DNA of 36,797 nt, from assembly GCA_020725525.1 (NCBI GenBank), contig DYEX01000156.1:1-36797 (forward strand), written 5' to 3'. Of this stretch, positions 1 through 11,357 are shown in pieces. The notes below the pieces were generated by a model. The model was not told the DNA's origin, searched no databases, and was given only the letters and a program-made list of their open reading frames with translations. Position 1 is the first letter of the stretch, and each line of letters starts with the position of its first letter. Position numbers and translations under genes: made by a program. Source of the DNA: Desulfovirgula sp. GTDB lineage: Bacteria > Bacillota > Desulfotomaculia > Desulfotomaculales > Desulfovirgulaceae.

Positions 1-1115
1 GTGAGGCCAAGTTCCCTCATACAGGCCAGGGCCTGTGCGGCAAAGGCTTCATTCAGTTCCACCACGTCTACATCCTGGATGGCAAGTCCCGCCTTTTTGA
101 GGGCTTTTCTGACGGCCGGAACCGGCCCGATGCCCATGTAGGCCGGGTCCACCCCGCCGGAAGCGTAGGCTTTAATCGCCACCCAGGGCTTTAGCCCCAG
201 CTCCTTCGCCTTTTCCCGGGACATCAGCACCACTGCCGCCGCAGCGTCATTTATGCCCGAGGCGTTGCCCGCAGTAACTGTACCGTCGGCCCGGAAGACA
301 GGGCGTAATTTGGCCATCTTTTCCATACTGGTATCCATGGGCCGCTCGTCGGTGTCAAAGACTACCGGCTCGCCTTTCTTCTGGGGCAGGGGTACGGGCA
401 CAATTTCTTCTTTAAAAAGCCCCTCTTTAATGGCGGCCCTGGCCCGCTGGTGGCTGAGCAGGCCGAGCTCATCCTGCTCCTGGCGGGTGATACCGTATTT
501 AGCGGCGATGTTTTCGGCAGTATTACCCATGTGGTAGCCGTAAAAAATTTCCCACAACCCATCATAAACCATCAGGTCAATGCATTCGCCTCTGGCATTG
601 ACATCCATCCGGTATCCCCAGCGGGCCCGGGGCAGGATATAAGGCGCCTGGCTCATATTCTCCATGCCACCGGCCACCACCACCTCCGCCTCGCCGGCCA
701 TGATGGCCTGGGCGCCCAGGGCAATGGCCTTTAAGCCCGAGCCGCAAACCTTGTTTACCGTAAAGGCGTTGGATTCTTTGGGAATGCCTGCATAAATGGC
801 GGCCTGGCGGGCGGTGTTCTGGCCGCTGCCACCCTGGAGCACATGCCCCATAATCACTTCGTCAACCTGTACTTCCTGCAGGGAGTCGTCCCAGTCATAG
901 TAGGTCTTTTCTAAATCCGTTACCGGTGCACCTTGCAGGGCATCGGGACCGTAACTTAGAAGCTCCGGGCTGGAGACGGGCCTTAAACCGGCCCGTTTTA
1001 AGGCTTCTTTAATCACCAGAGCACCCAGTTTAACCACCGGCACATCTCTCAACGAACCGCCGAAGGCGCCGATGGCTGTGCGCGCTCCGCTCACTATAAC
1101 TACTTCTTTCACCAC
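1..1115 (-). CDS. Acetyl-CoA acetyltransferase / 3-ketoacyl-CoA thiolase, C-terminus cut by window edge
   Basis: Thiolase that cleaves a 3-ketoacyl-CoA with CoA, or condenses two acetyl-CoA. The start is a GTG doublet (1115 or 1112) behind GGAG. The N-terminus reads [18 protein letters not shown], the nucleophilic Cys sits in NKVCGSGLK, and the [11 protein letters not shown] and NEAFAAQA (with the conserved His region before it) segments follow. About 371 codons are present, so roughly 20-30 C-terminal residues, including the last catalytic Cys, lie outside the window. An extra stretch of about 30 residues (around residues 37-70, containing [16 protein letters not shown]) lies between the first helix and DEVIMG; I recall similar insertions in thiolases of anaerobes. 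It is the last visible gene of the mutase operon, 31 bases after the dehydrogenase, so cleavage is its likely role. Confidence 0.9.
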
Positions 1116-1146: not shown

Positions 1147-1887
1147 TTAAAGAACCAAACCGCCATCTACGCTTAAGACCACTCCGTTGATATAGGCCGC
1201 CTCATCGGAGGCCAGGAATAGATAGGCGTAGGCTACGTCGCGGGGCTGGCCCAGTCGACCAAGGGGAGTCTTTTCCTTCATCATTTCCAACACCTTTTCC
1301 GGCACTTTGGCCGTCATGTCAGTGATGATAAAACCCGGGGCAACGGCGTTGACTGTAATCCCTTTGCGACCAAGTTCCTTTGCCCAGGTACGGGTCATAC
1401 CGATAACCCCGGCTTTGGTGGCCGCATAGTTGGTCTGGCCCATATTGCCGTAGAGGCCCACCACCGAAGCGGCGTTCAAGATTCGCCCGCTACCCTGGCT
1501 GATCATCACCGGGACGACAGCCCTGGTGCAGTTAAAAACCCCGGTCAGGTTGACGGCAATGACCTGATTCCACTGCTCGGGAGTCATTTTAGTTAAAAAG
1601 GCATCCCTGGTGATACCCGCATTGTTCACCAGGATATCTATGCGGCCGAATCCTCCCAGTGTCCCGTCCACCATGAGCTGCACTTGCTTAATATCGGTAA
1701 CGTCCACCGAAAAGAAAAGTGCCTCTCCTCCCATCTGGCAGATTTCCTGGACCGTAGCCGCCCCGGCCTCCCTATCAAAGTCCCCTATTGCCACTTTTGC
1801 CCCTTCCCGGGCGAATAGCAAAGCTGTTTCTCTGCCAATACCCCGAGCTCCTCCGGTGATGATGGCCACTTTGTCTTTTAAGCGCAT
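1147..1887 (-). CDS. Short-chain dehydrogenase (FabG/PhaB-like), probable 3-hydroxyacyl-CoA dehydrogenase
   Basis: A 246-residue classical SDR. The nucleotide-binding motif TGGARGIG is at residues 11-18, NNAG at 88-91, and the catalytic tetrad is Asn113-Ser141-Tyr154-Lys158. The PGFIITDMT segment is also typical. Asp36 at the end of the second beta strand (AIGDFD) is a known sign of NAD rather than NADP preference, which suits a catabolic oxidation better than fatty acid synthesis. The start ATG has GGAG eight bases upstream. It sits between a mutase subunit gene and a thiolase gene, so the likely step is oxidation of a 3-hydroxyacyl-CoA to the 3-ketoacyl-CoA. From sequence alone it could also be annotated 3-oxoacyl-ACP reductase (fabG). 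Confidence 0.9.
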   Translation of the reverse strand: MRLKDKVAIITGGARGIGRETALLFAREGAKVAIGDFDREAGAATVQEICQMGGEALFFSVDVTDIKQVQLMVDGTLGGFGRIDILVNNAGITRDAFLTKMTPEQWNQVIAVNLTGVFNCTRAVVPVMISQGSGRILNAASVVGLYGNMGQTNYAATKAGVIGMTRTWAKELGRKGITVNAVAPGFIITDMTAKVPEKVLEMMKEKTPLGRLGQPRDVAYAYLFLASDEAAYINGVVLSVDGGLVL

Positions 1888-1953: not shown

Positions 1954-2367
1954 CTACTGCATACCCACGACCTGCGCAGCTTTTTTCATGCAACCAACGA
2001 TTTCCTCCCTGGTTGACCCGCTGGGACATACTTCCATAAACCCCATTTCTTTTAATACCGGTATATCCCTGGGTGGAATTACTCCGCCCATAATAAAAGC
2101 TATCCGTCCTTCCAATCCGCGACTCCTGGCCAGGTCCATAAGAGCTTTCCCCAGGCGCAGGTGAGCACCCGACAGGGAACTCACTCCCACCACCTGCACG
2201 TCCTCCTCTACCGCCGCTTTTATAGCCTCTTCCGGCGAGGCATTTCCCAGGTACACCACCTCCACCCCGGCTTCCCTGAGCATGCTGCTGACTGTGATAA
2301 TCCCCCGGTTATGGGTTTCCGGCCCGAGACAGCACATCAATATCTTAATTTTCCTCTCCTGAGTCAT
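1954..2367 (-). CDS. B12-binding small subunit of acyl-CoA mutase
   Basis: Cobalamin-binding Rossmann-like subunit of about 137 residues, the normal size of a free-standing mutase small subunit. The lower axial ligand motif normally DxHxxG appears as E-T-H-N-R-G: the His is kept but the Asp is Glu. The Lys four residues before that Asp in P. shermanii methylmalonyl-CoA mutase is Cys here. Later motifs VVGVSSLSGAHL and IMGGVIPPRDI are typical of the family. The frame is open to 2409, but the ATG at 2367 has AAGGAG eight bases upstream and is the better start. That start lies 17 bases beyond the stop of the large subunit gene. Confidence 0.9.
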   Translation of the reverse strand: MTQERKIKILMCCLGPETHNRGIITVSSMLREAGVEVVYLGNASPEEAIKAAVEEDVQVVGVSSLSGAHLRLGKALMDLARSRGLEGRIAFIMGGVIPPRDIPVLKEMGFMEVCPSGSTREEIVGCMKKAAQVVGMQ

Positions 2368-2384
2368 GGCGGTCACTCCTTCCC

Positions 2385-4157
2385 TTAGAAAAAGCTGGGT
2401 CTTTTCCATAATCCAAAAGCTTCTTTAAAAATTTTCCACTGTTCTCCTACGGTACAACCGGCCCGGGCACAGTTCAGGGTGTAAGGAACGATATTAACTC
2501 CTTTTTTACAGGCCTCTTTCAGTGCCTTTAAGGCACTCTCAACTTCCTGCGGGTCCCTTTCCGATTTAAATTTTTGTAGCCTGGCCAGTTGTTTTTGCTC
2601 CGCTTCTTCAGGATAACGGAATGCTTCAATATCTTCGCTGTGGGCACTTTTCTGCCAGTTGTGAGCGACGATTTTTATCTCTCCCCGTTCAATTTTTTTC
2701 TGTTCCTCATAAAAGTAGTTGTAAATTTTTCTCAAAAGAAAACCATTACTCACTGCTTCCACATAACCGCCCTGCTTCTCAATTTCAGTAATCTCATCCA
2801 TGATTCTTTCCTCGATTTCATTGGTTAACGCTTCTACGTAGAATGATCCTCCCAGGGGATCCACCACTTTGGTAATGCCCGTTTCATGCTCTATAATCTG
2901 CTGGGTACGAAGCGACAAAAGGGAAGCTTCCTCCGAAGGAACCGCAAAGGCTTCATCATAAGAATCCACGTGCAGGGACTGAACGCCTCCCAGCACCGCC
3001 GCCAGGGCCTCAAAAGCCGATCTGATAATGTTGTTTAATGGCTCTTCCCTCACCAGGCTGATCCCGGAAGTCTGCACGTGACACCTCATCCACATGGACC
3101 GGGAATTCCGGGCACGGTATTTATATTTCATGATTTTGTACCAGAGCCTCCTGGCTGCCCGCAGCCGGCAAACTTCTTCGAAGAAGTCCATGCCTACTGA
3201 CCAGAAAAAGGCCAGTCTTTCCCCCACCCAGTCCACATCGTGCCCCCTGCGGATCATTTCATCCAGAATTGCCATGGCATGGGCAAAGGCCACCGCAATT
3301 TCAGTAATCCCCGAAGTACCAAACTCACGCAGGTTGTATCCATTGAGGGTAATGAAGTTCCAGCGCGGCACATGGCTCCTGATGAATTCGATATTATCAC
3401 ACTCTATACGGAAGCAGTCGCGGGGAGGAATATACTCAGCGGCATTCCGCACTACTTCCTCCAGTGTAACATCATTCTGCACGCTACCCCTCAGCTGTTC
3501 CCACGGAATGCCCCTGCGCTCGGCCATAACCAGGTACATGGGAAATAAGATGGCTGTATTTGAGGGATAATGGGTGACTATGGAAACGGTTTCCCTCGCT
3601 ATATCTATTCCCTGGAACAACAGCTCCCAGTCACCCACATGGTTAACGCTAACCCCGCAGGAACCGACGGAGCCCCTGGACATGGGGTCGTCACAGTCAT
3701 ACATCTGAATGGTGGGCATATCAAAAAGAAGATTTATCCCGGTAGCCCCGTGCTCTAGCAGGAAACGAATTCTGGCATTGGTATCTTCCGGGGCACCAAA
3801 GCCGACCAGCTGGCGCTGGGTGAAGGTCCTACCCCGGTACATATTGCTGTGAATGCCCCGGGTAAAGGGTTCCTGTCCGGGATGGCCCAGATGGGTATCG
3901 TAGTCGAAATCGGCAAGGTTAAGGGGGGTATAAACCAGCTCCCTGGGAATATCAGAACCCAGCACCGTACGCGGTACTTGATGCCACTGTTCGAGATCTT
4001 CCTTTCGAACCATCTGGTTTTTCCATTGTTCAAAACCAGCATGCAATTTAGAGAGGGCTTCGGAGTTATAAAGTGGGGTATGTTCTTTTCGGGGAAAACT
4101 TTCTTTCAAAACATCCCTCGTAGTTTTCTTTATGGCATCAATTTTTTCTTCCTGCAT
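2385..4157 (-). CDS. Large subunit of an atypical B12-dependent acyl-CoA mutase
   Basis: 590-residue TIM-barrel subunit of the methylmalonyl-CoA mutase superfamily, which moves a CoA-thioester group by a radical mechanism. Family landmarks: PFTRGIHSNMYRGR (97-110), FDMPT (145-149), QND (227-229), RLAFFWSVGMDFFEE (314-328), LRAARRLW (332-339), QSLHVDSYDEAFAVPSEE (393-410), VDPLGGSFYVE (432-442). Compared from memory with P. shermanii MutB, Tyr89 is Leu117, Ser114 is Asn142, Ala116 is Leu144, Thr195 is Ser225 and His244 is Asn275. Gln197 (Gln227), Arg207 (Arg237), His328 (His360) and Gln330 (Gln362) are kept. The codons for Leu117 and Asn275 were read directly. This pattern matches none of the methylmalonyl-, isobutyryl-, ethylmalonyl- or 2-hydroxyisobutyryl-CoA mutases as I know them, so the substrate is unknown. 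The B12 domain is encoded separately, just downstream. Confidence 0.93.
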   Translation of the reverse strand: MQEEKIDAIKKTTRDVLKESFPRKEHTPLYNSEALSKLHAGFEQWKNQMVRKEDLEQWHQVPRTVLGSDIPRELVYTPLNLADFDYDTHLGHPGQEPFTRGIHSNMYRGRTFTQRQLVGFGAPEDTNARIRFLLEHGATGINLLFDMPTIQMYDCDDPMSRGSVGSCGVSVNHVGDWELLFQGIDIARETVSIVTHYPSNTAILFPMYLVMAERRGIPWEQLRGSVQNDVTLEEVVRNAAEYIPPRDCFRIECDNIEFIRSHVPRWNFITLNGYNLREFGTSGITEIAVAFAHAMAILDEMIRRGHDVDWVGERLAFFWSVGMDFFEEVCRLRAARRLWYKIMKYKYRARNSRSMWMRCHVQTSGISLVREEPLNNIIRSAFEALAAVLGGVQSLHVDSYDEAFAVPSEEASLLSLRTQQIIEHETGITKVVDPLGGSFYVEALTNEIEERIMDEITEIEKQGGYVEAVSNGFLLRKIYNYFYEEQKKIERGEIKIVAHNWQKSAHSEDIEAFRYPEEAEQKQLARLQKFKSERDPQEVESALKALKEACKKGVNIVPYTLNCARAGCTVGEQWKIFKEAFGLWKRPSFF

Positions 4158-4190: not shown

Positions 4191-5162
4191 TCAGCGAGTC
4201 ATTTGAGCAAGCAATTCTTTGATTAGACAATCTGCTCCCGTATAAGGATCCATTTCACCCCTTTTTACTCTTTCCATAAGGCCACTTAAGCCGGCCACCT
4301 CCTTGATTTTTTGTTGAACATACCTTTTTAGTGCTTCTTCCACCATGAATAAACAGGTTACCTCTCGTCGCCGGTACCGTTTTTCCTGCCACTGACCGGT
4401 TTGAAGCAGGTATTCTTTGTGTTCCTGGATGGCCTCGTGTAACCGGTCCATACCCTGGTTTTTGAAGGCTACTGCGGTCAGCACCCCAGGACGCCATCCC
4501 CGGCGAGGCAGCCCATCCAGCATCAGGTTTAAATCCCGTACCATATCCTGAGCGCCTTCCAGGTCGGCCTTGTTAACCACGAATAAATCGGCAATTTCCA
4601 TAATGCCTGCCTTCAAAAGTTGCATCTGATCCCCCAGGCCAGGAACGGTTACCACCAAAACTGTGTCTGCCCAGTTCAAAATGTCCGCTTCCACCTGCCC
4701 GGCCCCGACGGTTTCTACGATAATCACATCTTTTCCTAGAGCATCCAGCAGTTGAATAACTTCCTTTGCTCTGGGGGCCAGACCCCCCAGTTCACCCCGG
4801 TTGGCCAGGCTACGTATGAAAACTCCCTCATCCCTGGAGGAAAGGCTCATTCGAACTCTATCACCCAGAAAGGCGCCGCCACTAAAAGGGCTGGTGGGAT
4901 CTATGCAGAGCACACCTACCGACAATCCCTGTCGCCGGAAAAGAGGAACCAGCTTATCCACAATGGTGCTTTTTCCCGCTCCAGGCGGGCCGGTAATCCC
5001 CAGGACATAAGCATTTCCAGTAAACCGGCTTACACGGCGCATGATCTCTTGTGCCACCGGGCTTTCATTTTCCACCAGGGTGATCAACCGGCTGGCAGCC
5101 AGGACATCCCCCTCCAGCAAGCCGCCAAGCAATTTCTCCACTGTTCCCGGAGCCATATCCAT
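4191..5162 (-). CDS. meaB: MeaB/ArgK-type GTPase, mutase chaperone
   Basis: G3E-family GTPase that loads and protects B12-dependent acyl-CoA mutases. The P-loop GPPGAGKS is at residues 58-65, followed by IDPTSPFSGGAFLGDRVRM, ETVGAGQVEADI (switch region) and the base-recognition motif NKAD. Length, about 323 residues, is normal. Three in-frame ATGs (5171, 5162, 5156) lie at the start; AGGAG abuts the first and is nine bases from the second, so 5162 is preferred. It is the first gene of the mutase operon, 33 bases before the large subunit, which supports a dedicated chaperone role. Confidence 0.95.
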   Translation of the reverse strand: MDMAPGTVEKLLGGLLEGDVLAASRLITLVENESPVAQEIMRRVSRFTGNAYVLGITGPPGAGKSTIVDKLVPLFRRQGLSVGVLCIDPTSPFSGGAFLGDRVRMSLSSRDEGVFIRSLANRGELGGLAPRAKEVIQLLDALGKDVIIVETVGAGQVEADILNWADTVLVVTVPGLGDQMQLLKAGIMEIADLFVVNKADLEGAQDMVRDLNLMLDGLPRRGWRPGVLTAVAFKNQGMDRLHEAIQEHKEYLLQTGQWQEKRYRRREVTCLFMVEEALKRYVQQKIKEVAGLSGLMERVKRGEMDPYTGADCLIKELLAQMTR

Positions 5163-5175
5163 GTTATCCATCTCC

Positions 5176-5190
5176 TATGGTAATACCATA
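5176..5190. promoter_or_regulatory. Putative FadR/GntR-type operator of the mutase operon
   Basis: TATGGTAATACCATA has perfect six-base arms around a three-base centre and matches TGGTNNNACCA, the known style of FadR-subfamily sites. It lies about 15-30 bases downstream of the predicted start of transcription and just before the meaB ribosome-binding site, a plausible roadblock position. An extra GGTAT half-site lies next to it. Binding by the neighbouring GntR protein is inferred. Confidence 0.65.
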
Positions 5191-5210
5191 ATACCATTCT
5201 ATTAGTTATT

Positions 5211-5239
5211 ATATTAGTACCGCCCCCTGGTTCTGTCAA
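5211..5239 (-). promoter_or_regulatory. Sigma-A-type promoter of the meaB-mutase operon
   Basis: On the minus strand TTGACA (5234-5239) is followed by a 17-base spacer and TAATAT (5211-5216). The -35 box is perfect and the spacing ideal. Transcription would begin near 5204, about 40 bases before meaB. Confidence 0.7.
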
Positions 5240-5280
5240 TAATTTTTTAAATATTTAACTATACACCCATACCGGGGGCA

Positions 5281-5308
5281 CAAAAAAACCCCGGAAATAC
5301 TCCGGAGT
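5281..5308 (-). terminator. Rho-independent terminator after the gntR gene
   Basis: Read on the minus strand, ACTCCGGA and TCCGGGGT form an eight-base stem (one G-U pair) followed by seven T. It lies about 130 bases beyond the regulator's stop and before the mutase operon promoter, separating the two units. The bases between it and 5438 show no gene. Confidence 0.75.
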
Positions 5309-5437
5309 TCATATCAACCTGAGAACATCGTTTACAAAGGGATGGCTAATTCCGCCAGTTTTCTATAAATACTTTCCCTGTGCTCGAGCTGATTTTACTG
5401 GAGGCATGACATTTTGGATGGGCAGAATCAGGTCTCG

Positions 5438-6181
5438 TTACAGAATATCTTTGTAAAAAGTGATTATGTGAGATACCATTAAATCTCGAGCCCTTTCGGC
5501 ATCCCGGTTACGAATAGCCTCCAGAATGGCCCGGTGTTCCTGGATAATGGCATCCCGGGCCTGCCGCCTGGTCATCAAAGTTTTAAAGACGTTGCGCATA
5601 ACCCGGATCATGGTCTGCCGGACGGCCTTCATTACGATGAGGTTAATCCGGTTCTTTGCCGCTTCAGCCACGGCCAGATGAAATTCAACATCCGCATCAT
5701 GAAATTCATCCCACCGGATGTCACCCGGCTCTGTGTTATCCACAATTTCCTGAATCCTTCTTATGTCTTCGTCCGTAGCACGTTTGGCGGCCCAGTAACC
5801 GGTAATCCCCTCCACCGCCTGGCGAAATTCTACCAGTTCTCTTTCACTGATTTTTTCCAGTAAAAATAACCTCTGCAGTGCTTCTACCGTAGTAGCGGTG
5901 GAAATTGGCTTAACAAAAATTCCTCCGGAAACGGCGCCCGTTCTCACTTCTACCATGCCATTACTTTCCAGCACCCGGATAGCTTCCCTCACTGAAGCCC
6001 GTCCAACTCCGAAAATCTGCTGCAATTCCCTTTCACTTGGCAGACGTTCATGGGGTTTCAACTCACCACTAATAATGGCTTCCTCTATTTGACGTACAAT
6101 GTCCTCAAAAGCCCTGGTTGGTGCGGCTTTTTGAAATATATGGCGCACTTGATGGGAATTATTGTCATGTTCAAGACCCAT
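5438..6181 (-). CDS. FadR-subfamily GntR transcriptional regulator
   Basis: 247 residues. The N-terminal winged helix (about 20-90) contains LPSERELQQIFGVGRASVREAIRVLESNGMV (split over about 46-76), the GntR signature. The C-terminal all-helical FCD domain carries Asp/His residues (for example in HDADVEFH and EHRAIL) that bind a metal or an acidic ligand in this family. The ATG has AAAGGAGG eight bases upstream. The gene sits between the mutase operon and the CoA-transferase operon, so it is the likely local repressor, responding perhaps to the pathway acid or its CoA ester. Ligand and binding sites are inferred. Confidence 0.93.
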   Translation of the reverse strand: MGLEHDNNSHQVRHIFQKAAPTRAFEDIVRQIEEAIISGELKPHERLPSERELQQIFGVGRASVREAIRVLESNGMVEVRTGAVSGGIFVKPISTATTVEALQRLFLLEKISERELVEFRQAVEGITGYWAAKRATDEDIRRIQEIVDNTEPGDIRWDEFHDADVEFHLAVAEAAKNRINLIVMKAVRQTMIRVMRNVFKTLMTRRQARDAIIQEHRAILEAIRNRDAERARDLMVSHIITFYKDIL

Positions 6182-6246
6182 GGACCTGGCCTCCTTTCTA
6201 TATAAAGAAAAAAATATGGGCTCTAAAATTCTGGACCTTTTGGTAT

Positions 6247-6274
6247 ATTATACTAATCATGAACCCAAAATCAA
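6247..6274 (-). promoter_or_regulatory. Promoter of the gntR gene
   Basis: TTGATT (6269-6274), a 16-base spacer and a perfect TATAAT (6247-6252) on the minus strand. The -10 box lies inside a quasi-palindrome (TTAGTATA/TATACCAA), which could allow autoregulation, but it does not match TGGTNNNACCA. Confidence 0.6.
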
Positions 6275-6340
6275 GGGCTTACATTTAATTTTATAAGAAT
6301 GGAAGAACCATTACACTCCTTTTTCTTTAAACTACTGTAC

Positions 6341-6376
6341 AAAAAAAACGCCGTCCGGGTAATTAACCACGGAGGC
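6341..6376 (-). terminator. Rho-independent terminator after the CoA-transferase operon
   Basis: Minus-strand hairpin with GCCTCCG on one side and CGGACGGC on the other (one bulged base) followed by eight T, just beyond the stop of the beta subunit gene. Confidence 0.7.
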
Positions 6377-6385
6377 TGTTCACCA

Positions 6386-7186
6386 TTAATTCATAAAAAT
6401 TCCTTCTGGATCTACCAACGTCCGCAGGATGTCAAGCTCTTCTCCGGTCGGCGGCTCGGCAGGCACAGCACGGGAAACGTCAATTTTAAAGCCCGTATTC
6501 TCTTTAATCATATCTGGGGTAATTCCCAGGTGGGCAAAATATTCGGCCACATACATCTCCTTCGTATCCTGGTCAAACTTCATGATCCCCATAGTAGTAA
6601 CCACAGCCTCAGGACCACCTCTTAGTCCCAGTTCCTCCCGCCTGACCAGTTTCCTGGATGAAAAATCCCGATAGCATTGCCACCCAGGGCTGGTTAGATA
6701 GTCCACCCGTTCCACCAAACGCCGTGCTTCATGGGCAATGATGATGTAAAACCTGCGGGCCAGAGCGGCAATATCGCTGGCACCCCCTGAACCCTCCAGG
6801 CGCACCTGAGGATGACGGTAATCCCCTATGCAGGTGGAATTGACATTACCATATTTGTCTATCTGAGCCCCACCCAGAAACCCTACATCGATACGACCTT
6901 TCTGGAGAAATTGCCCCATTAACTGGACCGGGTCACAGATCAGCGGAACCCGGTAGAATCCCCTGGGATCTGCCACGCAGGAAGGGAGGGCCAGGGGGTA
7001 ACCATCATAAGGACCTGCTTCCATTATCAGTATGGCATCCCGGGCGTGGGTGTGCTTGGCCAGAATGGCGGCTACCAGGGGAAGACCGGTGCCTACTATT
7101 ACCCGATCACCATTTTTAATTAGTCGACTGGCTGAAACAGCCATTGCTTCCCGCGGTGTATAACTTAACTTTTTCACCAAATACAT
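6386..7186 (-). CDS. Class I CoA-transferase, beta subunit (GctB/IpdB-like)
   Basis: 266 residues, matching the glutaconate CoA-transferase beta subunit in length. Glu56 in IMEAGPYDG falls where GctB carries its catalytic Glu54, so transferase activity is plausible. GFLGGAQIDKYGNVNST and RLEGSGGASDIA are typical of the fold. It follows the alpha subunit by eight bases. The ATG at 7186 is only one base from GGGGG, so TTG at 7180 or GTG at 7177 may be the real start. The family also contains IpdAB, which opens a steroid ring rather than moving CoA, so the activity should not be assumed. Its likely job is activation of the acid used by the mutase pathway. Confidence 0.88.
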   Translation of the reverse strand: MYLVKKLSYTPREAMAVSASRLIKNGDRVIVGTGLPLVAAILAKHTHARDAILIMEAGPYDGYPLALPSCVADPRGFYRVPLICDPVQLMGQFLQKGRIDVGFLGGAQIDKYGNVNSTCIGDYRHPQVRLEGSGGASDIAALARRFYIIIAHEARRLVERVDYLTSPGWQCYRDFSSRKLVRREELGLRGGPEAVVTTMGIMKFDQDTKEMYVAEYFAHLGITPDMIKENTGFKIDVSRAVPAEPPTGEELDILRTLVDPEGIFMN

Positions 7187-7194
7187 ACCCCCTT

Positions 7195-8205
7195 TTATCC
7201 CGTAGCCAGAGTTTTTTCCTGCGGTTCTTTCTTACGCCTTTTCAACGCCGCATTATATCCCAGAGCCGGATCTGCCCTTAAGGATAAGAGCCGCCGCACC
7301 CCCAGTTTTTCCAGATAACACATATGATCCGGTATCTCCAGTACCCATTCAGAAAGCCATTTTTTAAAAGCCAGTTCGCTCTTGCTGGCAGCCACATATT
7401 CATTGAAAAAGGCGGAATCGGTATCGTACATGCCGGCTAATGTAGTGGGATGAGCACCAAAGGGCACTTCTACAATGACGTCCACCACTTCTTTGGGGAT
7501 GACGTTCAGTTCCGGCTGGGAACGGAGATAGTCCTCAGAAGTAATGTATTCGGCCGTAACTATGGTTGTTCTGGCGGCCATGGCAGCGTAATAGTCCAGG
7601 AAAGGCCCCCCGTAAATGCGCACAGTTCCTTCCTCACCCACCATTTGAACATGAATAATGGCAAAATCCGGCTTTAAGGCTGGAACCAGTACGACCTCTC
7701 CTTCTCCCCAGAAAGGATCGTTCATAACCTGTACTTTTTGACGCGGTACTTTTGGATCCTTACCACGATGAGGAGCCAGAAGATCATACTCCGGGTTGAT
7801 TATGTCCGTACCGCGCAGGGACAGCGTGGGCATGAAGGGCACACCCATCGCTCCCGCCAAAAGACGCAGCGCACCCGTCTGCACCGTCCAGTCATCGTGG
7901 AGATACCCGGTTCTATCCAGCCCGCCTTTTTCGTAATAACGCCTGAAACAGTACGGGTGGCCCAGAACTTCATGGCCAATGTAGTTGGTCTCACACAACC
8001 GAATACAACCGGCTCCAATCAAAAGGTCATTCTCCGGCCCACCGGGGTTACTAACCAGATGCAAATTCTTTTTCCCCTGCCGGATAATTTCATAGACTGC
8101 TGCCATAGGCTTGCGTGTAACTGTCCAGCCGCCAAAAACCACGGTCGCTCCATCAGGAATCAGGGCCACAGCCTCAGATAAACTCATGCGTTTGCTCGTT
8201 TTCAT
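7195..8205 (-). CDS. Class I CoA-transferase, alpha subunit (GctA/IpdA-like)
   Basis: About 336 residues. VVFGGWTVTRKPMAAVYEI near the N-terminus and SNPGGPENDLLIGAG are typical of the alpha subunit of CoA-transferase family I. FAIIHVQMVGEEGTVRIYG and the VIVEVPFGAHPTTLAGMYD segment follow. Two ATGs lie six bases apart; GGGGAG abuts the first (8211) and is six bases from the second (8205), which is preferred. It forms a two-gene operon with the beta subunit, from the promoter at 8458-8486. The homologues use dicarboxylic acids (glutaconate) or CoA esters; the substrate here is unknown. Confidence 0.88.
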   Translation of the reverse strand: MKTSKRMSLSEAVALIPDGATVVFGGWTVTRKPMAAVYEIIRQGKKNLHLVSNPGGPENDLLIGAGCIRLCETNYIGHEVLGHPYCFRRYYEKGGLDRTGYLHDDWTVQTGALRLLAGAMGVPFMPTLSLRGTDIINPEYDLLAPHRGKDPKVPRQKVQVMNDPFWGEGEVVLVPALKPDFAIIHVQMVGEEGTVRIYGGPFLDYYAAMAARTTIVTAEYITSEDYLRSQPELNVIPKEVVDVIVEVPFGAHPTTLAGMYDTDSAFFNEYVAASKSELAFKKWLSEWVLEIPDHMCYLEKLGVRRLLSLRADPALGYNAALKRRKKEPQEKTLATG

Positions 8206-8216
8206 TTCCATCTCCC

Positions 8217-8399
8217 CTATTCAGTTACGGGTTTTGCCGAAATTAAAGCAAAATAATTACAATACCCGGTATCGAACATCCTATGGCCACTGAAGGGCGT
8301 ATATCCAGAGCCGGTGGTGTTGATCATAAAACCGTACAGGAAAATCGCACTTCCCACCAAGGAGATGTAAAGAATAATCTTGCGCGCTCCGGTTAATAC
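8217..8399 (-). pseudogene. Possible decayed or non-AUG small membrane ORF ahead of the CoA-transferase
   Basis: On the minus strand about 60 sense codons run to a TAG at 8217 that touches the next gene's ribosome-binding site. The translation has a hydrophobic segment (KIILYISLVGSAIFLYGF) followed by TTGSGYTPFSGHRMFDTGY and ends AKPVTE, which looks protein-like. There is no good start: upstream in frame come a GTG and then a TAA, and only ATT (8378) has a GGAG at suitable distance. It could be a gene with a rare start, a gene broken by a stop codon, or chance. Confidence 0.35.
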
Positions 8400-8429
8400 T
8401 TAATAAAACACCCCCTCGACAAATGGCAT

Positions 8430-8446
8430 TAATGGTCCTACCATTA
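8430..8446. promoter_or_regulatory. Putative FadR/GntR-type operator of the CoA-transferase operon
   Basis: TAATGGTCCTACCATTA has perfect seven-base arms around three central bases and contains TGGTNNNACCA. It begins about 12 bases beyond the -10 box of the promoter at 8458-8486, over the first transcribed bases. It has the same core as the site before meaB. Confidence 0.65.
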
Positions 8447-8457
8447 TATTTGTTACT

Positions 8458-8486
8458 ATATTATTACCACTTGCCATTATTGTCAA
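8458..8486 (-). promoter_or_regulatory. Sigma-A-type promoter of the CoA-transferase operon
   Basis: TTGACA (8481-8486), 17 bases, TAATAT (8458-8463) on the minus strand. Both boxes and the spacing are identical to those of the meaB promoter. Confidence 0.7.
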
Positions 8487-8651
8487 TAGTCTGTCTAATC
8501 AAGAAATCTTTGAAGTAACCGCCTCTACCAGGCCACGCCATTTATGAAAACGTGCTAACTTTTCCAAACTTTGCCCTAAAAAACTCCTGGTAATATGCCG
8601 AACCACAGGAGGAATTCGCCACAAAAAGAGCGAATATTTTAAAACGTATGG

Positions 8652-8662
8652 TGGTCATACCA
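8652..8662. promoter_or_regulatory. Third TGGTNNNACCA site, upstream of the glcD-like gene
   Basis: TGGTCATACCA lies 32 bases before the glcD-like start codon. Its flanks are less symmetric than those of the other two sites. The rest of the gap (8487-8694) shows no gene: there is a short hairpin (ATTCGC/GCGAAT, 8614-8635) followed by ATTTT, and an AGGAGG at about 8608 with no start codon behind it. No clear promoter for the glcD-like gene was found. Confidence 0.5.
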
Positions 8663-8694: not shown

Positions 8695-10092
8695 ATGTTC
8701 GTCGCACAGGCCATCGCAGCGTTGCGCCGGGAACTGGGCGAAGAAAATGTAATTACCTCGCCCGAAGACTTGCTCTGTTACTCCTATGACGCCACGGCCG
8801 ACCTGCCCGAGCAAAAGCCCGATGTGGTAGTCACCCCGGAAAACGTGGATCAGGTGGTGAAAGTGGTCAAGATTGCCCGCCAGTTTCGTTTGCCCATTTA
8901 CCCCCGCGGTTCGGGAACAAATTTAAGCGGCGGCACAGTTCCCATCAAAGGGGGAATTGTGCTCAGCACTTTAAAAATGAACCGCATTCTGGAAATAGAT
9001 CCTTCCAACCTGACGGCCACGGTGCAGCCCGGGGTGATCATTCAGGACTTGAATAATGCCGTGGCCCCCTACGGTTTGATTTACCCGCCCGACCCGGGCA
9101 CGGTGGCCACCGCCACCATGGGAGGAAGCGTGGCCGAGTGTTCCGGAGGACTGAGGGGGCTCAAGTACGGGGTCACCAGGCATTATGTCATGGGGCTGGA
9201 AGTAGTGCTGGCCGGCGGGGAGGTAATCCGGTATGGAGGCAAGACGGTGAAAAATGTAACGGGCTACGACCTGGTCCGGTTGTTTACCGGCTCCGAAGGC
9301 ACCCTGGGGATCATTACGGAAATTATTGTCCGCCTGATCCCGGCTCCCCAGGCCAGGGAAACCATGCTGGCCGGTTTCAGCCGCCTGGCCGGCGCGGGAA
9401 ATGCCGTTGCTGATATCATCGGGCAAAAGGTAATCCCGGCCACCCTGGAAATTATGGACCGGGTTACGGTGGAAACCGTAGAAAATTTTGCCCACGTCGG
9501 CTTGCCCACCGATGTGGCGGCCATCCTGCTCATCGAGGTGGACGGGATTCCCGAAGTGGTAAAATCCGAGGCGGCCGCCGTCAGGCAGGTTATTGCCAAA
9601 AACGGTGGCTGGGTCAAAACGGCGGAAAATGATGAAGAACGGGAAAAATTATGGAATGCCCGCCGGGCCGCCCTGCCCGCCCTGGCCCGCCGCAAGCCCA
9701 CCACCATCCTGGAGGACGCCACCGTGCCCAGGAGCAAGATCACGGATATGCTCCTGGCCGTAGAAGACATCGGCAGGCGTTACAACCTGGTTATCGGCAC
9801 CTTTGGGCACGCCGGTGACGGCAACCTGCACCCGACCATCCTGGCCGATGCCCGCAACGAGGAGGAGATGGAGCGGGTACGCCAGGCCGTGGAAGAAATC
9901 TTCCGCGCGGCCTTGAGCCTGGGAGGCACCCTTTCCGGGGAGCACGGGATCGGCATCGCCAAAAAGCAATTTCTCCCCTGGGAGATGGGCAATTCGGGCG
10001 TGCAGGTACTCAAGAAAATCAAGCAGGCCTTAGATCCGGACAATCTCCTCAACCCGGGCAAAATTGTGGATCTTGAGGAGGGGCAGGCATGA
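8695..10092 (+). CDS. GlcD-like FAD-binding 2-hydroxyacid dehydrogenase subunit
   Basis: 465-residue FAD oxidoreductase of the PCMH/vanillyl-alcohol-oxidase fold, the family of GlcD, D-lactate and D-2-hydroxyglutarate dehydrogenases. The FAD pyrophosphate loop PRGSGTNLSGGTVP is at 70-83, with VTGYDLVRLFTGSEGTLGIITE in the middle. The C-terminal substrate domain holds FGHAGDGNLHP and SGEHGIG. The ATG is five bases after GAGGGGGAAG. It overlaps the next gene by four bases (ATGA), so the two are translated together. The electron acceptor partner is the Fe-S protein next door. The substrate cannot be told; glycolate, D-lactate or another 2-hydroxyacid are options. It is divergent from the CoA-transferase operon. 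Confidence 0.9.
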   Translation: MFVAQAIAALRRELGEENVITSPEDLLCYSYDATADLPEQKPDVVVTPENVDQVVKVVKIARQFRLPIYPRGSGTNLSGGTVPIKGGIVLSTLKMNRILEIDPSNLTATVQPGVIIQDLNNAVAPYGLIYPPDPGTVATATMGGSVAECSGGLRGLKYGVTRHYVMGLEVVLAGGEVIRYGGKTVKNVTGYDLVRLFTGSEGTLGIITEIIVRLIPAPQARETMLAGFSRLAGAGNAVADIIGQKVIPATLEIMDRVTVETVENFAHVGLPTDVAAILLIEVDGIPEVVKSEAAAVRQVIAKNGGWVKTAENDEEREKLWNARRAALPALARRKPTTILEDATVPRSKITDMLLAVEDIGRRYNLVIGTFGHAGDGNLHPTILADARNEEEMERVRQAVEEIFRAALSLGGTLSGEHGIGIAKKQFLPWEMGNSGVQVLKKIKQALDPDNLLNPGKIVDLEEGQA

Positions 10093-11357
10093 GCATTTTT
10101 GACGGGCTGGCGGCGGTGGAAGAAGAAATACTTAAATGCATGAAATGCGGCAACTGCCAGGCTGTTTGCCCTTTATACCAGGAATCCCGGCGGGAACCGG
10201 CCGTGGCCCGGGGGAAAATCCGCCTGGCCGCGGCGGTCCTGGAGGGCAAGCTGGAACCAACGGCCGGGCTGGCCGAGCGCTTCGCCCTTTGTCTCACCTG
10301 CCTGGCCTGTGTGGCCTCGTGTCCCTCCGGCGTGAAGGTGGACCGGATCATCCTGGCCGCCAGAACGGCCCTGACCCAGCGGAAAGGGCTGCCCTTCATA
10401 AAGAAGACCGTGTTTACCGGCCTCAGCCGCCCCCGCCTTTTTGATCTGGGGGTAAAAACCGCCGCCCGCATACAGGGACTGTTATTTAAACACATTGAGC
10501 CGGGAAAGATGCAGCCCCGCTTCCCTATCGGCCTGGAACTGCGCCGGATCCTTCCTCCTCTGGCACCGGTTCCCTTCCGGGACCAGGTGGCGGAAAAGCA
10601 TACGGTCGAACGGCCCGTGGCCACGGTGGCCTTCTTTACCGGCTGTATGACCAATTACCTTTATCCCGGGATCGGACAGGCCGCCCTGCGCGTCCTGAAG
10701 GCCCACGGGGTGGACGTGATTATCCCCCGTCTGCAGCACTGCTGCGGTGCTCCCATCCTGTACAACGGTGCGGCGGACATGGCCCTGGAAATGGCCAGAT
10801 CCCACGTGGATTTATTCAGCGGTGTGCAGGCCGACGCCATTATCACCGTGTGCGGGACGTGCGGGGAAGCCTTTAAACACCTGTACCCGGAACTGCTGGA
10901 GGATATTTCCGGATACGGGAAAAGGGCACGGGAAGTGGCCGCCAAAATCCTTGATATAACCCAGTTCCTGCACAGGCTGCCCTTTGACCCGAAGCTGTTC
11001 AAGGCGTTGGAACTGGCCGTCACCTACCACCAGCCCTGTCACCTGGGCCGCGGTCTGGGCGTAGCGCAGGAGCCCCTTTCCATCATCCGGAGCATTCCCG
11101 GGGTCAATTACCTGCCCCTCAAGGAACCGGCCCGGTGCTGCGGCAATGCCGGCTCCTTCAGCCTGACCCATTACGATTTGTCCTATCAGATTCTCACCCG
11201 CAAGTTAAAAGATATCGAAGGAACCGGCGCACAACTGGTGGTTACCGGTTGTCCCGCCTGCCGGATGCACCTGACCGACGGGCTGACCCAGGAGCAGATG
11301 CCCCAGAATGTGGTGCACACGGTGGAGCTGCTGGCCAGGTCCCTTGATGAAGAGTAA
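10089..11357 (+). CDS. GlcF-like iron-sulfur heterodisulfide-reductase-type subunit
   Basis: 422 residues. Two [4Fe-4S] ferredoxin motifs are visible, Cys17-20-23-27 and Cys68-71-74-78, followed by two CCG domains: FFTGCMTNYLYPG with CCGAPILYNG, and YHQPCHLGRGLG with CCGNAGSFSL. This layout is that of GlcF and related subunits that pass electrons from the FAD partner to quinone or another carrier. It is translationally coupled to the glcD-like gene and ends at a terminator. No GlcE-like subunit is present, so this is the two-subunit form. Confidence 0.92.
   Translation: MSIFDGLAAVEEEILKCMKCGNCQAVCPLYQESRREPAVARGKIRLAAAVLEGKLEPTAGLAERFALCLTCLACVASCPSGVKVDRIILAARTALTQRKGLPFIKKTVFTGLSRPRLFDLGVKTAARIQGLLFKHIEPGKMQPRFPIGLELRRILPPLAPVPFRDQVAEKHTVERPVATVAFFTGCMTNYLYPGIGQAALRVLKAHGVDVIIPRLQHCCGAPILYNGAADMALEMARSHVDLFSGVQADAIITVCGTCGEAFKHLYPELLEDISGYGKRAREVAAKILDITQFLHRLPFDPKLFKALELAVTYHQPCHLGRGLGVAQEPLSIIRSIPGVNYLPLKEPARCCGNAGSFSLTHYDLSYQILTRKLKDIEGTGAQLVVTGCPACRMHLTDGLTQEQMPQNVVHTVELLARSLDEE

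Follow-up and report, generated by a model that had tools for sequence, protein, structure and literature searches.

Regulators of the FadR subfamily (GntR proteins with a winged helix-turn-helix and an FCD domain) are described in PMC4494728, as excerpted, as binding TKGT-N3-ACMA operators with a 3-nt spacer, AT-rich flanks and sometimes additional boxes 7-12 nt from the centre, the regulator gene lying beside its targets. In LldR/lactate-utilisation systems such an FCD GntR is encoded beside a lactate permease and a LUD-domain gene, with sites ahead of the permease and of glcDF. A GntR gene is also usual in the mutase-ligase clusters (HcmAB/RcmAB, MeaH, HCL ligase; excerpts of PMC7176365), and in sulfate reducers the mutases convert 2-hydroxyisobutyryl-CoA to 3-hydroxybutyryl-CoA, which is then oxidised to acetoacetyl-CoA (PMC7888143, in part). 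Here we analyse 36,797 nucleotides of Desulfovirgula sp. (GCA_020725525.1, contig DYEX01000156.1; hereafter the window), where genes for a CoA-transferase, a B12-dependent acyl-CoA mutase and a GntR protein lie divergent from a glcD-glcF pair (Table 1). Three intergenic TGGTNNNACCA sites (sites 1 to 3) were read in a first-pass annotation as operators of one local GntR regulon tying GlcDF to the pathway. The window shares with the described subfamily the domain pair, the spacer, the AT-rich flanks, the extra box (at site 1) and the regulator gene next to its targets. We suggest that two regulons of the same subfamily probably meet here, the cluster GntR acting on sites 1 and 2 and an LldR-type regulator acting on site 3.

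The FadR-subfamily assignment made by the annotation is borne out, since PF00392 (68.5 bits) and PF07729 (89.3 bits) both match the GntR protein over their cut-offs. The metal/carboxylate site of FCD domains is made up of D, H, H and H, and residues D164, H168, H216 and H238 are invariant in all 6 proteins aligned (4 GntR orthologues and 2 LldR). Searches of NCBIfam and of solved structures gave no characterised orthologue, in which the protein differs from the described members of the subfamily; the best NCBIfam match, PdhR, reaches 139 of the 330 bits needed, far below the cut-off, and the best solved relative is 2di3 (85.7 bits), named C. glutamicum LldR in the available part of PMC4494728. 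Close relatives are few. Among 113 genomes of the order the best match is 82% identical (D. copahuensis, G067) and the next best 39%, the class-level search covering the same 113 genomes with no additions, and in 398 genomes sampled from the phylum the sole match at E<=1e-45 apart from the own genome is G234 (46%). While a contig scan with the single GntR sequence gave no match, an alignment-based scan found relatives, and in the named collection these are D. copahuensis (82%), Firmicutes bacterium HGW-Firmicutes-12 (63%), SKS3.bin89 (46%) and then proteins of at most 37%. In distant FCD GntR genes (30-37%, mostly from deltaproteobacterial metagenome-assembled genomes; L110, L111, L112, L114, L115, L116), AATGGTNNNACCATT-like sites stand a short way ahead of the start, which suggests that operators of this form are widespread across the subfamily.

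Sites 1 and 2 each lie 14-22 bp past a predicted TTGACA-N17-TAATAT promoter, one ahead of meaB and the mutase genes, the other ahead of the CoA-transferase and gntR genes. In D. copahuensis both orthologous promoters bear the site, with the sequences TAATGGTAGTACCATAATACC and TAATGGTAGGACCATAGG; the equivalent of site 1 is at L052:5811-5821 and that of site 2 at L052:364-374. HGW-Firmicutes-12 has the site 1 equivalent at L108:1361-1371, in the order gntR-site-meaB-mutase. The annotation had named loss of the sites at orthologous loci as a possible refutation; they are kept there, and an operator of the TKGT-N3-ACMA form near the targets accompanies the regulator in three genomes. The five readable promoters of the system (two in the window, two in D. 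copahuensis, one in HGW-Firmicutes-12) all have TTGACA and a spacer of 17-18 bp, with TAATAT (three times), TACTAT or TATAAT as the -10 box and TGGT 11-22 nt beyond it. Read along transcription, all five operators follow (A/T)ATGGTA(G/T)(G/T)ACCA, and the block from the -10 box to the operator is the best conserved stretch of the promoter alignments. Site 1 also has a third half-box, the product of an apparent 8-bp tandem duplication, and the TGGT of this box stands at the standard 14 nt from the -10 box. A position just past the -10 box would be the one expected for a repressor, and we predict that sites 1 and 2 are very probably the operators of the cluster's own FCD/FadR-type GntR; to this extent the local regulon of the annotation stands, with its strong promoters and its sites kept in two other genomes, but it does not extend to site 3.

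A near-operator with one mismatch, TGGAAGAACCA (minus strand AATGGTTCTTCCATT), lies at 6300-6310 in the 204-bp gap before gntR (6182-6385), where a possible second gntR promoter was noted by eye. It was set aside and is not claimed as a site of the regulon because it is not conserved in D. copahuensis. That genome keeps the order CoA-transferase alpha-beta-gntR-meaB with an intact major facilitator superfamily (MFS) transporter gene in front, and its mutase is on a separate contig that begins within meaB. Between its CoA-transferase alpha and beta genes there is a transposase-like insertion (L052:2915-3881) of two open reading frames (ORFs), the second with a DDE_Tnp_1 domain and the first with no Pfam match. 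The MFS gene has decayed in the window, since only two fragments remain in the leader of the CoA-transferase operon and the D. copahuensis copy (PF07690) is intact. Around mutase orthologues of 78-79% (G015, G017, G072 and contig C156 of G067), no exact TGGTNNNACCA was found in the 5-19 kb read, except for L089:7977, inside a short-chain dehydrogenase/reductase (SDR) ORF at 7516-8256; the two of these loci searched for one (G017 and G067:C156) have a sigma54-type regulator beside the mutase.

Site 3 does not follow the cluster. We surveyed the 350 bp upstream of glcD at 30 loci of the order (own included) from the 48 matches listed, and an exact TGGTNNNACCA is present at 12. In the genus, the family and family f2, the glcD spacer has it in 10 of 10 genomes read (own, G061-G066, G068, G001 and G002), where G061-G065 belong to the same genus and G066 and G068 are the only other family members with a glcD match; in G066 the site is further out, at -145. 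The 25-mer around site 3, ACGTATGGTGGTCATACCATCAGAC, is identical in the own genome, G061, G062, G063 and G065; the G064 copy differs by one base. None of these nine relatives has a GntR match above 37% identity, and the five of the same genus have no close mutase (best about 43%) or CoA-transferase (best about 47%). Conversely, D. copahuensis, which has the cluster and both operators, gives no glcD match at E<=1e-150, so that co-occurrence of site 3 with the GntR or the cluster, as a single regulon would have it, is not observed. Similarity to the five same-genus genomes begins between sites 2 and 3, at 8570, 8575, 8575, 8595 and 8631 (blastn). Since the cluster-free relatives keep site 3 and the similarity begins between the two sites, site 3 is part of the ancestral glcDF locus, with site 2 on the side that came in, and these comparisons indicate that site 3 is older than the cluster at this place. 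A search around site 3 for TTGACA/TATAAT-like pairs (spacer 16-18, at most 3 mismatches) gave none. TerC and redoxin genes lie downstream in 4 of the 7 glcD loci searched, that is, in 4 of the 5 same-genus loci.

A candidate regulator for site 3 comes from the genome G002, where genes for an FCD GntR, a lactate permease and a LUD-domain protein are divergent from glcDF. On contig C137, the own genome encodes an LldR-type GntR 83.5% identical to that protein and adjoining a PF02652 lactate permease and a LUD gene; LldR matches of 75-89% are present in 9 of 9 family genomes searched. Here permease-lldR (C137) and glcDF (C135) are on separate contigs, unlike in G002, where they are neighbours, and the linkage of a cognate lldR to glcDF in relatives is read in G002 alone. 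The pattern TGGTCAKRCCAYC, which was written after site 3 and the permease sites had been seen, finds in the own genome site 3, two places ahead of the lactate permease gene (lctP) and one inside an ORF on C62, with 1 and 0 for the backwards control; on this post hoc pattern, site 3 and the permease of the same genome have the same motif. Downstream of lldR and towards the permease, TGGTCNNRCCAYC occurs at 8 of the 9 family loci; the remaining locus, in G068, is cut by the contig end. The lactate sites have the common form TGGTC..RCCAYC. In all five cluster sites TGGT is preceded by A and ACCA is followed by A or T; in site 3 the base ahead of TGGT is G. This flank difference between cluster and lactate sites is a correlation from few sites. 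On the simplest reading, site 3 would be part of the lactate regulon and bound by LldR, and the glcD-like protein is probably a D-lactate dehydrogenase. The tie of GlcDF to the pathway drawn by the annotation is not supported, as site 3 is found in nine relatives without the GntR, resembles the permease sites and has an LldR candidate of its own.

From the sites, the predicted promoters, their positions, their conservation and the protein domains, we infer binding, repression and an inducer for sites 1 and 2. The cluster GntR, an FCD-domain repressor that is presumably dimeric, would bind both sites just downstream of the -10 boxes and block transcription of the meaB-mutase and CoA-transferase-gntR operons, its own gene included. 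Release would come when the FCD pocket takes up an inducer, which would be a carboxylate or a CoA ester and is probably a short 2-hydroxy acid, for example 2-hydroxyisobutyrate. For site 3, its persistence without the cluster, its likeness to the permease sites and the presence of LldR suggest LldR binding; it would be the glcDF operator of this separate regulator, encoded with the lactate permease elsewhere in the genome, and would already have been in place before the catabolic cluster inserted next to it. The common TGGTNNNACCA core of the look-alike sites would follow from the recognition helix, in which the cluster GntR and LldR have the same stretch RASVREA (R61-A67), and not from one regulon.

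Several observations weigh against this division. On the reverse strand site 3 reads TGGTATGACCA, which also fits the consensus core of the cluster sites, and as RASVREA is identical, cross-binding of site 3 by the GntR is plausible. The glcD-upstream site is not universal, because 18 of the 30 order loci have no exact TGGTNNNACCA within 350 bp upstream. Only two genomes beyond the own one give readable orthologous promoters, and the contig of the 46% GntR orthologue (G234, L053; 6.3 kb) has no such site, with gntR neighbours that differ from those of the window as judged by ORFs without a domain search. The palindrome of site 1 is shifted 8 bp relative to the other cluster operators, and the late writing of TGGTCAKRCCAYC belongs here as well.

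That all three sites are chance occurrences is hardly credible, despite a modest count. As annotated, the exact TGGTNNNACCA matches of the window are three, at 5178-5188, 8433-8443 and 8652-8662, with the quoted flanks and ahead of three transcription units. The annotation gave a chance figure of about 0.6 sites per 37 kb; the genome rate is 0.62-0.65 per window (Poisson P(>=3) = 0.025-0.028), and 100 dinucleotide shuffles of the window gave a mean of 0.49 (at least 3 in 1 of 100). Matches with up to one mismatch are not in excess (15 against 15.4 expected), and the whole genome (3.24 Mb) has 57 exact matches against 121 for the backwards control pattern. By itself, then, the count is weak evidence (P about 0.03). 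Placement is the stronger evidence: a simple ORF rule covered 50 of the 57 genomic sites, putting 44 within ORFs and 6 outside (1 of these touching an ORF start), and the window's three sites make up half of these six (Fisher p = 0.001). Many coding matches genome-wide had been named in advance as counting against the sites, and this holds for the bare core, which is mostly coding; the three sites of the window are all intergenic. Each site also persists at orthologous promoters where the spacer next to it has diverged, and chance was rejected as a full explanation on position and conservation, even though the count taken alone says little. In the whole genome the longer form ATGGTNNNACCAT has 6 matches (backwards control, 5), of which sites 1 and 2 alone fall outside ORFs; the other 4 lie within ORFs according to the ORF lists and were rejected as further members of the regulon.

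It could also be that the cluster GntR binds all three sites, with GlcDF either belonging to the mutase/CoA-transferase regulon or captured after the insertion. Site 3 is only 219 bp from site 2, between divergent operons, and divergent operons with double sites are known in the FadR subfamily (PMC4494728, in part); the common core and the identical RASVREA would allow it. We consider this unlikely, since site 3 is unchanged in genomes without the GntR and resembles the lactate-permease sites, D. copahuensis has two operators with no glcD match at the threshold given above, and the base before TGGT separates the five cluster sites from site 3; as the simplest reading, a single three-site regulon was rejected on the phylogenetic profile of site 3. 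Another FCD regulator, such as LldR or a paralogue, acting on sites 1 and 2 in place of the cluster GntR is very unlikely: the genome encodes five FCD proteins, and GntR and LldR have the same recognition stretch, but in each of the three genomes with these sites it is the cluster GntR that is encoded next to them, and the TGGTCAKRCCAYC form typical of the permease sites is missing from sites 1 and 2. Two regulons side by side are thus the reading we retain. A further step presumes a mobile 2-hydroxyisobutyrate-type island with its own GntR and operators, inserted beside a lactate operon, and two repressors reading the TGGTNNNACCA core. The insertion would then have made a hybrid divergent region with the two proteins in competition across sites 2 and 3, and with it a new lactate/branched-hydroxyacid cross-control; we consider this unlikely.

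As for the substrate of the cluster, the best solved relative of the mutase, 4r3u, is a 2-hydroxyisobutyryl-CoA mutase. The specificity residues of HcmA, which we take to be Ile90/Asp117, are not conserved: the aligned positions hold Leu117/Leu144, against Ile and Asp in the 4r3u chain. HcmA membership was rejected on this difference, and the protein is not filed as HcmA. Like the 2-hydroxyisobutyryl-CoA mutase clusters (PMC7176365) and the acetone clusters (PMC7888143, PMC8084838), as far as the excerpts of these papers go, the window has a two-subunit mutase, a G-protein chaperone, a 3-hydroxyacyl-CoA dehydrogenase candidate, a thiolase and a GntR. It differs from them in its glutaconate-type CoA-transferase, and no HCL ligase or thiamine pyrophosphate (TPP) lyase was found among the cluster genes searched. 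For 2-hydroxyisobutyryl, CoA transferase and GntR together, PMC7176365 was the only paper found among those searched. In G017, a 79% identical mutase is flanked by genes for MaoC, 2-hydroxyacyl-CoA dehydratase, a sigma54 activator, an M24 peptidase, a Zn-dehydrogenase and MeaB, a set that resembles the acetone clusters published for Desulfotomaculum arcticum and D. geothermicum (PMC8084838, in part); the TPP enzyme of those clusters is absent among the 12 neighbouring ORFs searched. In D. copahuensis the genes next to a second, 78% identical mutase encode a TPP enzyme, an SDR and a thiolase. Taken together, 2-hydroxyisobutyrate or a similar acid would fit as the substrate of the cluster. GlcDF is not needed for the 2-hydroxyisobutyrate route and is better explained by lactate oxidation.

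The insertion may extend beyond the window. In G063 and G062 a GNAT gene precedes glcD, and its counterpart in the own genome is on contig C147 (82%), where the thiolase C-terminal part, a DctPQM TRAP transporter and CobO are encoded beside it (L227 1-4602). The thiolase part is 95% identical to the window thiolase over 433 bp. The distance from the end of the C147 match to the start of the window match is 55 bp in G063, 59 bp in G064, 148 bp in G061, 269 bp in G065 and about 2,800 bp in G062. As these matches nearly abut in G063 and G064, C147 and the window look like the opposite ends of a single insertion that lies between GNAT and glcD, a joining that can only be presumed because the thiolase overlap is 95% and not exact. 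CobO also follows the mutase in HGW-Firmicutes-12, and no TGGTNNNACCA was found in the 9 kb of C147 read. C147 is a possible other half of the same catabolic island, whose content would be the CoA-transferase, the B12 mutase, MeaB, the SDR, the thiolase and perhaps the TRAP importer and CobO. In G062 an IS21-type IstA/IstB pair (L160:4099-6380) sits in the GNAT-glcD gap, which suggests that this gap received insertions more than once.

The minus strand of the window holds two units, meaB with the large and small mutase subunits, the SDR and the thiolase, and the CoA-transferase alpha and beta subunits with gntR; glcD and glcF diverge from them (Table 1). For the thiolase, PF02803/PF00108 were found in the C147 copy, the one searched for domains.

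Table 1. Genes, predicted promoters and TGGTNNNACCA sites in and around the cluster (window positions).
Feature	Position	Strand	Basis
Thiolase, cut by the contig end, start codon uncertain	1..1115	-	open frame; 95% match over 433 bp to C147
SDR, 3-hydroxyacyl-CoA dehydrogenase candidate	1147..1887	-	domain searches
Mutase B12-binding small subunit	1954..2409	-	PF02310
B12-dependent acyl-CoA mutase large subunit	2385..4157	-	PF01642; best solved relative 4r3u
meaB, G-protein chaperone of the mutase and first gene in its operon	4191..5171	-	PF03308, TIGR00750
Site 1, predicted operator of the meaB-mutase promoter, plus-strand reading TATGGTAATACCATA	5176..5190	-	predicted; orthologous sites
Extra ACCA box by site 1 (TGGT along transcription), 11.5 nt from the operator centre	5193..5196	+	sequence
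Predicted meaB promoter	5211..5239	-	-35 TTGACA 5239-5234, 17-bp spacer, -10 TAATAT 5216-5211
FCD/FadR-type GntR, last gene of the CoA-transferase operon, presumed repressor	5438..6181	-	PF00392 + PF07729
CoA-transferase beta subunit	6386..7186	-	PF01144
CoA-transferase alpha subunit, glutaconate CoA-transferase type	7195..8211	-	PF01144; best solved relative 1poi
MFS transporter gene remnant, decayed	8211..8388	-	blastn 75%/126 nt and 83%/54 nt, tblastn, against D. copahuensis
Site 2, predicted operator of the CoA-transferase-gntR promoter, plus-strand reading TAATGGTCCTACCATTA	8430..8446	-	predicted; orthologous site
Predicted CoA-transferase operon promoter	8458..8486	-	-35 TTGACA 8486-8481, 17-bp spacer, -10 TAATAT 8463-8458
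Approximate boundary zone of the cluster insertion	8570..8631		blastn similarity starts against five same-genus genomes
Site 3, TGGTCATACCA, predicted LldR-type lactate operator ahead of glcD	8652..8662	+	conservation, likeness to permease sites
glcD-like FAD subunit	8695..10092	+	PF02913/PF01565; TIGR00387 match below cut-off
glcF/ldhH-like Fe-S subunit	10089..11357	+	domain searches

We suggest that a gene cluster for a B12 enzyme has most likely arrived recently beside an older lactate switch. A GntR protein for which no characterised orthologue was found now has a defined pair of predicted operators and a predicted class of inducer, and the cluster suggests that Desulfotomaculum-type bacteria have a variant of the 2-hydroxyisobutyryl-CoA mutase pathway with a CoA-transferase. 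The locus is also an example against merging family-level motifs into one regulon, as adjacent operators with the same core appear to have different histories and, most likely, different regulators.

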